This document shows, piece after piece, positions 37,872 through 51,226 of a DNA stretch of 64,000 nt. The stretch lies in the NCBI RefSeq assembly GCF_000585395.1, contig NZ_KK073875.1:633186-697185 (forward strand), given 5' to 3'. The notes below the pieces were generated by a model. It ran no database searches. It was not told the DNA's origin and saw only the letters and a list, made by a program, of their open reading frames with translations. Each line of letters opens with the position of its first letter. Positions within the stretch are counted from its first letter, which is position 1. This DNA is from Saccharibacillus sacchari DSM 19268 (GTDB lineage: Bacteria; Bacillota; Bacilli; Paenibacillales; Paenibacillaceae). The position numbers and the translations under genes are program-made.

Positions 37872-39203
37872 TTATAATTGGAAGCCGATCCCGCCGCTTT
37901 TGACGTCCATCCAGCTGCCCTTTTTCTCTTTGTTCATCTCGCCGCCCATGGAACGGACGATGGCGGCGATATCGACTTCGCCCTGCTCGTTCCATTCCAG
38001 AGCCGCCGAGACATACAGTTCGCCGAGCTGGGCCATGCTGAAGCCCTGGGTCAGCGCAATCGCGCCTTCGAATGCTTCCGCGGATACAAAGTCCGTCAGT
38101 CCGCGGCGTTCCAGGAAGATCCGACGCATGTCTTTGTCGGGCAGCGTGATTTCATAGGAACGATCGAAGCGTCCGGCGCGGTTCATCAGGCCCGGGTCGA
38201 TCTTTTCCGGATAATTGGTCGTGCCGATCAAGAAGATGCCTTCTTTCGACGTCGCGCCGTCCAGCGTATTCAGGAAGAAGGAACGCACGCCCTGCGGCAT
38301 GGAATCGATATCCTCGATTACCAGTACCATCGGCGCCAGACGCGCGGCGGTCTCGAAGACTTCCTGCACCGAGCCGCTGGACGTGTATTCCGTGATCTGC
38401 CAGTAAGCGGCAGGACCCGGCACGCTGCCCGCGATCGACTTCACCAGCGTCGTTTTCCCGTTACCCGGGCGGCCGTAGAGCAGAATGCCTCGTTTGAACG
38501 GAAGATTATGTTTGCGGTAAAAGCTGCGGTCGGAGGCAAAGAACTGATCCAGCGAGCGGTAGATTTCTTTTTTCAGCGGCTCGGGAAGAATGACGTCGTC
38601 ACGCGATACGGCGCGCGTGATCGGCTCGCTTTCCCGCTGCATGCCGTTATTCGTGTCGGTGAACACCGTGATCCGATCCTGTTCCCGATTGCGCTGGCGA
38701 ATGCGGACGCTGCGCAGGAACTCGCTGATCGCTTCGTCCCCTGTCGCAAACACAAAGTCTTCGCTATAGATGCCGTGTTGGCGGAACATCGGAATCCGAG
38801 CCAAAGCCACGCCCTGACCGGCATACACGAATACGTTGTTACGAATCGCCGGATGGATCGTATATTCCGGCGTGAGGCTGTCTTCGTCGTAGGCAAACGT
38901 ACGGCCTTCGATCCCTTCGTAGATGCGACCTGCGCATTCGACGTCGGGCGAGCCTTTTTTCACGTCTTCCTCAAGCAGATCCCAATAATCGTTATTTCCG
39001 TCATCGCTCGCATACAGCGTATAGGTCACGCCGTATCTCTCTTCCAGCATCGCTTCGATTCCCCGCGTTACGCGGGCATAAGATTCGTATTCCGCCATGT
39101 TCACATTGCCCGGCTCATACGCCACGATGGTTCGTTCTTCATTAGCCGGCATATCGATTCCCGCGATGCGCAGGCCTTGATCCGGTTGCACGTTTCGTTC
39201 CAT
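37872..39203 (-). CDS. AAA+ ATPase co-transcribed with rtcB
   Basis: 443 residues. The N-terminal half (about 1-210) is not recognised. The C-terminal AAA+ module has Walker A LLYGRPGNGKTTLVKS, Walker B MVLVIEDIDS, sensor 1 GTTNYPEKID and arginine-finger region MNRAGRFDR, as in FtsH/BCS1-like ATPases. The ATG overlaps the rtcB stop (TAATG) with AAGGGG upstream, so translation is coupled and the products probably work together. It may remodel RNA ligase complexes or a damaged-RNA substrate (inference). It ends with a strong terminator. Confidence 0.85.
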   Translation of the reverse strand: MERNVQPDQGLRIAGIDMPANEERTIVAYEPGNVNMAEYESYARVTRGIEAMLEERYGVTYTLYASDDGNNDYWDLLEEDVKKGSPDVECAGRIYEGIEGRTFAYDEDSLTPEYTIHPAIRNNVFVYAGQGVALARIPMFRQHGIYSEDFVFATGDEAISEFLRSVRIRQRNREQDRITVFTDTNNGMQRESEPITRAVSRDDVILPEPLKKEIYRSLDQFFASDRSFYRKHNLPFKRGILLYGRPGNGKTTLVKSIAGSVPGPAAYWQITEYTSSGSVQEVFETAARLAPMVLVIEDIDSMPQGVRSFFLNTLDGATSKEGIFLIGTTNYPEKIDPGLMNRAGRFDRSYEITLPDKDMRRIFLERRGLTDFVSAEAFEGAIALTQGFSMAQLGELYVSAALEWNEQGEVDIAAIVRSMGGEMNKEKKGSWMDVKSGGIGFQL

Positions 39204-40675
39204 TAGGATTTCGCCCCTTTCACTGCCGCAAGCGGCTTGCATTTGGCTACGACGGAAGCAAGTCCCGCCCCCGTCACGCTGTTGATAATGCGATCTACGT
39301 CTTTATAAGCTTGAGGCGATTCATCTAAAATAACGCCCAGCGAATTATGGTTGACGATGACTTCTTCTTCCGTTCCGACCTTGAGCGCAGCTGCAAACTC
39401 GTCTACCGTCACCAATTTCTTGGTCGCGGTCCGCGAACGGGCGCGTCCTGCTCCATGGCAGATCGAATGATAATTGTCTGCGCCGCTCGGCTCTCCGACC
39501 ATAATATAGGAAGACGTGCCCATGGAGCCGGGAATGAGCGCCGGGTGACCGGTTTCCCTATAAACGTCGGGGTTGTCGAGGTGGCCTGCCGGAAGCGCGC
39601 GAGTTGCTCCTTTTCGATGCACGAACCAATCTTGCCCGCCGTGATGTTCATCCCAAGCGTAATTGTGCATCAGGTCGTATAAAATCTTCATTTCGAATTT
39701 GGAGCCGAATACGTCGAGAAAAGCTTCGCGAATCGCGAAAGCGATCAGATGCCGGTTCACCACCGCCACGTTCAACGCCGAAGCCATCATATTGACGTAT
39801 CGCTCGCCTTCTGGAGAATCAAGCGGCGCAAAAATAAGTTTAGGATCGGCTGTGCCGAGACCCAAACGCGTCATCGCCCGGGCAGCCATCGACGTATAAT
39901 GCTGACTCACCATCGCTCCCCAAGCACGGGAACCCGAATGGATCATCACCGCCACCTGACCGTCGTACATGCCCCATTTCTCCGCGAGCTCCCGGTTTTC
40001 TTCGGCGATCTCCAAATACTGAATTTCCGCAAAATGATTGCCGCCGCCGAGCGTACCCAGCTGACGTAATCCTTTTACCCAATAATTATCGGCTACCGCG
40101 TTCAACTCTTCGGGATCGAAGTCGAAGCGCGCACGCTCCACATGGGTCAACGAAGGGGAACGTTTGGCGGACACGCCGTCGGGCAAGTATTTGTTGGGTA
40201 GTCCTTTAAGACCTTTTTGCACGATATTTTCCATCTTCAAATCGGAGAACGGACTGCGTTTATGAGCTTCCATCGGCAAATATTTTTCGATCCGGTTCAC
40301 CAGCTTGTGACGCAAACGCAAATCCTGGACATCGCTGCGATGCAGATTCGTCAAATGCACGCGCATGCCGCAACCGATATCGCTGCCTACGATCGACGGG
40401 GACACGATTCCGCCGTCTTTGTTCCAGACCGCCGTTGTACCGATGCAAGTGCCGACTCCGACATGCACGTCCGGCGTATAGCCCATGTAACGGATATCGG
40501 GAATTTGCAGATTGCGTTCGGCCATATCGAAAATTCTCGGGTCCAGCTGCGCAAACATTTCTTCGTCGGTATACACATGAACATGACCGGAAGCAAGCTG
40601 CACTTGGCGATAAAAAGAGGAGTTCGTTGATGTTGGGTTCATTGGGTTTACATTCGACATAAAGTAAAAATCCAT
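39203..40675 (-). CDS. rtcB: RtcB-family RNA ligase
   Basis: GTP- and Mn-dependent ligase joining 2',3'-cyclic phosphate or 3'-phosphate ends to 5'-OH ends of RNA. The 490 residues contain the metal/active-site motifs GSDIGCGM (Asp, Cys), LGGGNHFAEI (His), MIHSGSR (His), and the guanylylated-His region SICHGAGRARSR. ATG 40675 has AGGA at five bases; an internal ATG at 40660 has wider spacing, so the exact start is uncertain. No archease or RtcA gene is nearby; the partner is instead an AAA+ ATPase. Confidence 0.92.
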   Translation of the reverse strand: MDFYFMSNVNPMNPTSTNSSFYRQVQLASGHVHVYTDEEMFAQLDPRIFDMAERNLQIPDIRYMGYTPDVHVGVGTCIGTTAVWNKDGGIVSPSIVGSDIGCGMRVHLTNLHRSDVQDLRLRHKLVNRIEKYLPMEAHKRSPFSDLKMENIVQKGLKGLPNKYLPDGVSAKRSPSLTHVERARFDFDPEELNAVADNYWVKGLRQLGTLGGGNHFAEIQYLEIAEENRELAEKWGMYDGQVAVMIHSGSRAWGAMVSQHYTSMAARAMTRLGLGTADPKLIFAPLDSPEGERYVNMMASALNVAVVNRHLIAFAIREAFLDVFGSKFEMKILYDLMHNYAWDEHHGGQDWFVHRKGATRALPAGHLDNPDVYRETGHPALIPGSMGTSSYIMVGEPSGADNYHSICHGAGRARSRTATKKLVTVDEFAAALKVGTEEEVIVNHNSLGVILDESPQAYKDVDRIINSVTGAGLASVVAKCKPLAAVKGAKS

Positions 40676-40719
40676 TCCTTCCTATAGGGCAAATCGAGTA
40701 TTTTTGAAAAAAAGCATAA

Positions 40720-40749
40720 CAAAAAACCGCGAACTTTCCGTCCGCGGTT
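40720..40749 (-). terminator. Intrinsic terminator in the rtcB leader
   Basis: Minus-strand AACCGCGGACG / CGCGGTT hairpin followed by TTTTTTG, about 45 bases before the rtcB start and 95 bases after the 29-codon ORF. Transcripts from the promoter at 40997 must pass through it to reach rtcB. Confidence 0.8.
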
Positions 40750-40844
40750 ATGCCGGCATAGATGGATGGAAATCAAAGCCGCGCATACGCCATCCGTCGC
40801 GAAAGTGAGAATTCCGCAAAGATGGACTGCGCCGCCAGAACCAT

Positions 40845-40934
40845 TCAAGCCAAACCGTACCCGTCGAGGACAGGCAGAACGAAAGACGTCTGTTCAGTTT
40901 TCAAATGAGCCTTCAAACGATTAACAACCATCAT
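40845..40934 (-). CDS. 29-residue peptide ORF in the rtcB leader
   Basis: Begins MMVVNRLKAHLKTEQ and ends VLDGYGLA. AAAGGAGG lies nine bases before the ATG, one of the strongest sites in the window, and a near-consensus promoter starts about 30 bases upstream. A terminator follows before rtcB. It could be a leader peptide controlling read-through into rtcB, or an independent small protein. It has one weakly hydrophobic segment and no signal peptide. No relatives recognised. Confidence 0.6.
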   Translation of the reverse strand: MMVVNRLKAHLKTEQTSFVLPVLDGYGLA

Positions 40935-40967
40935 TGCTGCCATCCTCCTTTGCCAAATAGTAAACTT

Positions 40968-40997
40968 ATCATAGCCTTTTCTTTTGATCGCTGTCAA
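40968..40997 (-). promoter_or_regulatory. Promoter of the leader ORF-rtcB-AAA unit
   Basis: Minus-strand TTGACA (40997-40992), an 18-base spacer and TATGAT (40973-40968). Confidence 0.8.
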
Positions 40998-41026
40998 CCC
41001 TAATACTGGAAGCCGTTCTTCTTTTT

Positions 41027-50889: not shown

Positions 50890-51140
50890 GAAGAACCGGA
50901 CCGGCAACGGGTCTGCGAGGCAGGTCTCCTGACTCACGGGCCGATCGGCACCCCCGTTGATGCGCGGATTGCTCGCACGCTATACGATGATGGATCAGAT
51001 GAATCGGAATCCGCCTTCTCGCACGCTTTCGGCGCACAATGGCTCGTTGGATTCCACCCGTGTTACAGTGGCGGGACCGTGCCGGACTTGCACCGGCTTC
51101 CCTTTTAACCCCAGCAGTGATCCGGACTTCGGTTATTGAC
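50890..51140 (-). promoter_or_regulatory. Cobalamin riboswitch
   Basis: Minus-strand sequence has the conserved core AAGCCGGTGCAAGTCCGGC followed by ACGGTCCCGCCACTGTAA, and near the 3' end the B12 box GAGTCAGGAGACCTGCC (50935-50919). It controls btuF-btuC-btuD, most likely by transcription termination at 50759-50779. Confidence 0.95.
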
Positions 51141-51226
51141 CTAAAGTTCGGTTCAGCCGCTTGGGACCTCGACAGCTGTACATCTATGAAATCGTGAAGG
51201 TCCGTTTATCGGAACCTCGTCCCCCG

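Follow-up and report, generated by a model that had tools for sequence, protein, structure and literature searches.

A putative ribosome-mediated attenuator leader ahead of rtcB and a YjoB-type ATPase gene in Paenibacillales

Described systems and the leader at the rtcB locus

In the leader of vmlR of Bacillus subtilis, ribosomes stalled by antibiotics bring about transcriptional read-through, and an upstream open reading frame (uORF), an anti-antiterminator, an antiterminator and an intrinsic terminator form a set of rival helices (PMC9226507). The same elements can be recognised in the leader described here, which precedes rtcB, coding for an RNA ligase, and a gene for an AAA+ ATPase on the minus strand of a 64,000-nucleotide stretch of the Saccharibacillus sacchari DSM 19268 genome (hereafter, the window). 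All window parts described lie on that strand, in the order promoter, leader Shine-Dalgarno (SD) sequence and open reading frame (ORF), terminator, rtcB and AAA+ gene; as in vmlR, a short uORF with its SD is located between promoter and gene, and an intrinsic terminator between uORF and gene. The vmlR uORF, however, consists of Met-Ile-Asn, its SD is single-stranded and its output is an ABCF resistance factor (PMC9226507), whereas the uORF here has 18-41 codons (up to 49 in operons that begin with the RlaP gene), its end pairs with its own SD, and RNA repair takes the place of the resistance factor as output. The toiL uORF of Escherichia coli topAI answers several kinds of translation stress, but it acts on the ribosome-binding site of topAI and on Rho-dependent termination (PMC12121999), where the leader described here has an intrinsic terminator. 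The Salmonella rtcBA operon is, likewise, an inducible RtcB repair operon, but stands under RtcR, a sigma-54 activator whose CARF domain binds tRNA fragments (PMC7790460). Among the relatives of the window, an operon of the RtcR/RtcBA type was rejected: RtcR, RtcA and archease were each found in 0 of the 39 genomes searched, with positive controls (E. coli for RtcR and RtcA) working, which fits the preliminary description of the locus, where the AAA+ protein was suggested as a possible partner for RtcB in place of archease or the RtcR/RtcA arrangement. The B. subtilis homologue of the ATPase gene, yjoB, is listed as a core member of the sigma-W regulon (PMC3498285).

No leader of this kind is described in the titles and abstract openings of the open-licence papers on RtcB that our searches listed, and rtcB, Paenibacillus, RNA ligase, AAA and yjoB are all absent from the main text of a survey that covered the structured RNAs of 26 genomes (PMC8632094). 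At gathering score no Rfam family, T-box leaders included, matches the leader; with a lax threshold, four leader loci yielded just four matches, all far under that score. The leader RNA is real and order-wide (Paenibacillales); it has apparently not been described before and is, by all appearances, a variant of ribosome-mediated attenuation placed on an RNA-repair operon.

The leader probably acts as a ribosome-mediated transcription attenuator for an operon of rtcB and a YjoB-type AAA+ gene. Four segments would take part: the SD of the leader itself (segment 1), the last part of its ORF (segment 2) and the two arms of the terminator (segments 3 and 4). With no ribosome loaded, segments 1 and 2 would close into a helix (1:2), the SD would be locked and the terminator would form (OFF). 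Under normal translation, the ribosome would pass over segment 2 until it met the stop codon, and again the terminator would form (OFF). Were a ribosome engaged on the SD and held before segment 2, helix 1:2 could not close, segment 2 would pair with segment 3 (2:3), the terminator would be pre-empted and polymerase would go on to transcribe rtcB together with the AAA+ gene (ON). Comparison of relatives supports the ORF, helix 1:2, the terminator, helix 2:3 in many lineages and the operon linkage; we infer in addition the ON/OFF logic, the inducing signal, its connection with stalled ribosomes or damaged RNA, and joint action of RtcB and the ATPase. The earlier proposal that rtcB is under read-through control by a translated leader gains comparative support from a Paenibacillales-wide leader, an operon-type link and covarying rival helices.

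Operon linkage and the leader reading frame

Leader loci, genomes and genera are designated L, G and g, respectively. Two leader models were used, R1 built from 17 leaders and R2 from 48, many matches being therefore matches by construction; L009, L021, L151-L158 and L164 are among the leaders not used. When RtcB genes with E below 1e-200 to the window protein are counted as window type, 98 relatives hold 33 of them, and the leader is found ahead of 32. The 33rd begins 146 bases into its contig, and the same genome has a leader on another contig, 500 bases short of the contig end. At L010-L012 the leader is visible only in a longer upstream stretch (L153-L155), with an RlaP gene intervening. 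Linkage of rtcB to the AAA+ gene, on which the preliminary description had made its reading depend, holds for 27 of the 33. Conversely, 34 full-length YjoB-type proteins are encoded in the same relatives: 27 adjoin window-type rtcB by coordinates, in five more (G014, G071, G056, G019 and G037) the AAA+ gene is preceded by a leader match, and in the last two (G017 and G035) by a diverged leader, missed by the model and read by eye. Across the order, R1 matched (E up to 0.1, weak matches included) in 221 of 344 genomes, and among 60 loci selected from the strongest matches listed and fetched, rtcB lies within 3.2-4.2 kb behind the leader at 54 (16/20 and 38/40). At L071 and L074 the AAA+ gene follows the leader immediately, with no rtcB. 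Some relatives have RlaP ahead of rtcB (by Pfam match in L151; in L157 and others by sequence only), and behind it lies KptA in L157 or a TatD-type gene in L085; these companions led us to regard the operon as one of RNA repair. Burroughs and Aravind, in a 2016 work on RNA repair systems, may have described the RtcB-AAA+ or RlaP linkage, and therefore no novelty is claimed for gene linkage.

In draws from the class and the phylum (398 and 299 genomes), strong leader matches were confined to the window's family, which makes up nearly all of the order drawn. Matches of 22-28 bits outside the order, found in 19 genomes (11 and 8), were rejected as leaders: at 12 loci read there was no RtcB or YjoB, the sole exception being one 26-residue match with E 0.08. 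Of 14 YjoB homologues outside the family (class draw), eight were read; none has such a leader by eye or an rtcB match within ~1.5 kb on either side.

Some leaders occur in other settings. At L112 the leader runs into a remnant matching AAA+ residues 362-432, and at L124 neither rtcB nor the AAA+ gene is found within 3.6 kb; these leaders seem to have outlived their operon. L072 precedes a nucleotidyltransferase gene and one for a Cap15-type cyclic-dinucleotide receptor, and L073 precedes TetR and MFS genes; both (genomes G070 and G132) are second leader copies without the rtcB operon, and a one-base difference shifts the ORF frame in L073. A second type of RtcB (~55-60% identical; L159-L163 and the first copy in L157, where a Band_7/SPFH gene is next) had a leader model match at 0 of 7 loci in ~2 kb or more upstream, and a diverged leader, as in L171 and L172, could escape the model.

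The reading frame was analysed in 108 leaders, which remained of 110 parsed after exclusion of L128 (misparsed) and L073; the parsing pattern missed L099, L118 and L127. In none of the 108 is the ORF interrupted before segment 2 has been passed; its stop lies 8-47 nt past that segment, at exactly 12 nt in 64. The frame in which segment 2 ends is 0 in 82 leaders, 1 in nine and 2 in 17. In three genera, frame is preserved despite variable distance from start codon to segment 2: length variation in g1 (60, 69), g12 (70, 73, 76) and g7 (42, 75, 78, 81, 87, 90, 93) comprises only multiples of three. The peptide, on the other hand, is not kept. No codon position is favoured among the variable sites, which number 9/12/13 at the three positions in Saccharibacillus, 24/22/24 in g7, and 14/20/15 in g13 without L086, the frame of which differs; the majority of variable codons change the residue. 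Given the three frames and the mostly nonsynonymous change, a conserved leader peptide was rejected, and so was an amino-acid-specific attenuator of the trp/his type, which would have a regulatory codon run and a conserved peptide. The expectation of conservation upstream of rtcB is borne out for the leader, its open ORF and the terminator, though not for the peptide. Judging from this pattern, it seems that the readability of the leader is maintained rather than its product, and that what matters is the position of the ribosome. Since neither peptide nor frame is fixed, the sensor should answer a general failure of early elongation rather than one amino acid; damaged tRNA, a damaged decoding centre or elongation inhibitors would be candidate triggers.

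Competing helices and rival readings

In the window, helix 1:2 pairs 40947-40943 with 40866-40870 and 40941-40937 with 40873-40877. Among 17 leaders, 97.8% of its cells are paired, with nine double-change cells and double changes at 5 of 8 pairs, a result as high in 0 of 500 shuffles; among 48 leaders, where some alignment rows are off by one base, 95.1% are paired with 13 double-change cells, again as high in 0 of 500 shuffles. Shifting the partner by 1-3 columns lowers pairing to 27-58% and 13-59%, respectively. Because related sequences may beat shuffles without any structure, stronger evidence comes from diverged leaders that retain the helix in different letters, namely the leader of an RlaP-first operon (GAGGUUGGAAA:UUUCCAACCUC) and two YjoB operons of another genus (GGCGGGUACAG:CUGUACCUGCC). 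Moreover, exchange of segments among leaders weakens 1:2 (0/20000 permutations), and a column-by-column covariation scan of the leader core returned the SD helix as the best stack. A covarying helix of SD and ORF end is thus present in the place of the vmlR anti-antiterminator.

An SD that is strong and itself constitutes segment 1 would also suit a sensor of initiation, in which the SD-locked ORF reports the loss of SD-dependent initiation, e.g. on 16S rRNA lacking its anti-SD tail, closed 1:2 somehow favours read-through, and RtcB could re-ligate 16S rRNA. The RtcB2-PrfH module, or plasmid-borne rtcB2 alone, makes E. coli resistant to the 16S rRNA-cutting colicin E3 (PMC9223846). By the title of another work, RtcB reverses MazF-induced ribosome heterogeneity. 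However, closed 1:2 keeps segment 2 away from segment 3, in which case terminator formation is expected, so that the geometry predicts OFF; we regard this explanation as unlikely, albeit the foremost of the alternatives.

A terminator-like hairpin is present within ~420 nt in 101 of the 108 leaders, compared with 6% in shuffles. By eye, the terminators of L001, L006, L018, L020 and L027 often have a second U-run 5-10 bases beyond the first and at times an outer stem around the first. No terminator was found by the scan behind L030, where the ORF has 41 codons and stops at the rtcB ribosome-binding site; the arrangement suggests a translational version of the switch.

For attenuation, segment 2 should be able to pair with the terminator. 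We compared natural with lineage-swapped pairs for 12 combinations of segment and arm in 30 leaders less than 70% alike. Segment 2 with the terminator 5' arm plus loop was the sole outlier (z -3.5), the other 11 being null, including the bases after segment 2 with either terminator arm. Natural 2:3 pairs average -13.85 kcal/mol and swapped ones -12.18 (8/20000 permutations). With the loop included, the matches read UCGUCU:AGACGA in L038, UUGUCUA:UAGACAA in L090 and AUUGGCCU:AGGCUAAU in L112. Because the idea of 2:3 arose from this data set, nine fresh leaders were tested, and gave -13.58 against -10.90 (207/20000 permutations), with AUUAUUUUCC:GGGAAAUAAU matching in L151. This second test was not fully blind, as hairpins were marked by eye after the sequences had been read and the stretch compared was widened by four bases; L154-L156 and L172 were left out as near copies of others. 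Pooling of 35 leaders gave 0/20000 permutations, or 10/20000 without the strongest, counts that are not exact probabilities since the leaders are related. For the leaders as a set, an antiterminator of the vmlR type is accordingly present; it was not seen in several single lineages and is not visible in equilibrium folds.

In the window, the minimum-energy fold of the nascent leader is 1:2 (-26.5), which is displaced in the full-length fold (P 0.01), and the 2:3 duplex (-17.4) compares with -15.9 for the terminator. At equilibrium the terminator was largely insensitive in 39 leaders, so that a classical switch by equilibrium folding was rejected and the switch would have to be kinetic. The terminator thus folds largely independently of the leader, as would be expected of a stand-alone short transcript, in which promoter, ORF and terminator make a small mRNA or small RNA with a function of its own while rtcB lives on constitutive read-through; nevertheless, the RtcB/YjoB operon linkage, the 2:3 complementarity and the unconserved peptide speak against such a transcript, which we hold to be improbable.

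A mid-ORF motif (at least 9/11 match) was found in 42 of 47 leaders and in 16% of shuffled ORFs, the consensus having been drawn from the same leaders, which favours the motif. It starts in ORF frame 0, 1 and 2 in 26, 6 and 10 leaders, respectively, and in 40 of these 42 it precedes the end of segment 2 by 30-37 nt, usually by ~36 nt. A ribosome covers roughly 15 nt on either side of its P site; by this rough measure, a ribosome on the motif would stop just short of covering segment 2. Independence of frame and near-fixed distance would equally befit a leader bound by protein, be it RtcB, the ATPase or another, with feedback control of termination, yet such binding leaves the openness of the ORF through segment 2 unexplained, and we likewise give it little credence. 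Least probable of all, we find, is an RNA fuse, in which the motif would be a cut site of the same RNases whose damage RtcB mends, the cut detaching segment 2 from the SD and putting it out of reach of later ribosomes, so that the terminator would be pre-empted and breakage itself would turn on the ligase, until re-ligation of the leader by RtcB turned the switch off.

Attenuation by ribosome position, the reading we prefer, also has to be weighed against a number of unfavourable observations. As regards the ORF, a frame conserved within every genus was rejected: 21 of 22 leaders share a frame in g13, and g30, g35, g37 and g51 are mixed. Where the stop lies 12 nt past segment 2, a terminating ribosome may leave part of this segment uncovered. 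As regards 1:2, double changes at 4 of 8 pairs among the 48 leaders were equalled by 17 of 500 shuffles, two of five measures being at that level, and a base change in the close relative L009/L037 disrupts one pair. As regards 2:3, terminator arms without the loop gave no lineage-specific pairing signal with any leader segment; with a single Saccharibacillus retained, the test gives 122/20000, which is weak after 12 comparisons; 10 of the first 30 leaders pair no better than expected from swapping, with L074 and L075 clearly worse and a sign test of only 0.05; and L153, L164 and L173 of the further set do no better than swapped. In equilibrium folds of the 39 leaders, terminator probability is 0.71-1.00 in free RNA and barely shifts with ORF or stop covered, blocking of the SD clearly lowers it only in L006 (0.51), and P(1:2) is near 0 in L029, L116 and the window, the co-transcriptional fold of which is nevertheless 1:2. 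Finally, six of the 33 rtcB genes (G038, G056, G070, G078, G089 and G096) lack a full YjoB-type neighbour, with the leader still present.

Features and proteins of the locus

Coordinates are collected in Table 1. The near-consensus promoter, the 29-codon ORF behind its SD and the intrinsic terminator named in the preliminary description were all found in place, as was the overlap of the AAA+ gene with the rtcB stop, which amounts to one shared base (TAATG). In a consensus scan of 6.5 kb, the promoter is the best of five promoter-like sites; because shuffles contain no fewer such sites (mean 4.7), what lends it weight is the presence, as judged by eye, of similar promoters ahead of the leaders of relatives. 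The same type of scan found no minus-strand promoter-like site from terminator to rtcB, where a second promoter would have spoken against dependence on read-through.

Table 1. Minus-strand features of the rtcB locus (window positions)
Feature	Coordinates	Strand	Remarks
Sigma-A-like promoter, TTGACA-18-TATGAT	40968..40997	-	11/12 consensus matches
Leader SD AAAGGAGG (40951-40944) and segment 1, GAGGA-U-GGCAG (40947-40937)	40937..40951	-	
Leader ORF, 29 codons, MMVVNRLKAHLKTEQTSFVLPVLDGYGLA, behind SD AAAGGAGG	40845..40934	-	unbroken across segment 2 in relatives, with a peptide that is not conserved
Mid-ORF motif, consensus ACAAYYGMAYA, window version AAAACTGAACA	40891..40901	-	frame-independent; 36 nt before end of segment 2
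Segment 2 (CTGCC-TG-TCCTC), ORF end	40866..40877	-	putative partner of leader SD (anti-antiterminator) or terminator 5' arm (antiterminator)
Segment 3, terminator 5' arm (40749-40740) and first loop bases	40738..40749	-	GGACGG 40743-40738 complementary to 40873-40868
Intrinsic terminator, hairpin 40749-40725 and U-run	40719..40749	-	10 pairs, 6 G-C
rtcB, 3'-phosphate/5'-OH RNA ligase	39203..40675	-	start ATG 40660 or 40675; Pfam PF01139, 390 bits
YjoB-type AAA+ ATPase gene	37872..39203	-	443 aa from ATG 39203

RtcB is a plain family member, its residues 57-482 matching the Pfam family above cut-off. Of eight relatives of the window rtcB on named contigs, seven belong to Saccharibacillus (84-96% identical) and one to Paenibacillus ottowii. 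The ATPase gene has an alternative in-frame start, ATG 39242 within rtcB, which would give 456 aa. Residues 36-435 of the protein match the solved B. subtilis YjoB with E 2.4e-153 (PDB 7w42/7w46; N-domain 7w43), and by this match it is a YjoB homologue over both the N-domain and the AAA+ domain; the N-terminal ~210 residues, earlier described as unrecognised, are in fact a YjoB-type domain, structures of which have been solved. Another RtcB-like gene, the third and a shorter one (~32-39% identity over ~residues 198-461), lies at G000:C1:1070921-1071637 and occurs in many relatives. In a close relative (G015:C11:663800-665252) rtcB is in two overlapping pieces, as if its frame were broken, with the leader and the AAA+ gene present. 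Elsewhere in the window, a Cobalamin riboswitch (RF00174, 79.8 bits) lies at 50902-51146 on the minus strand.

Our results suggest that these Gram-positive bacteria switch on RNA repair upon ribosome trouble. If the conserved switch does sense how ribosomes behave, it would couple RNA repair to failure of translation and would offer a ready reporter for finding damaging agents. The leader would also be an apparently undescribed cis-regulatory RNA, typical of one bacterial order and marked by a uORF that locks itself.

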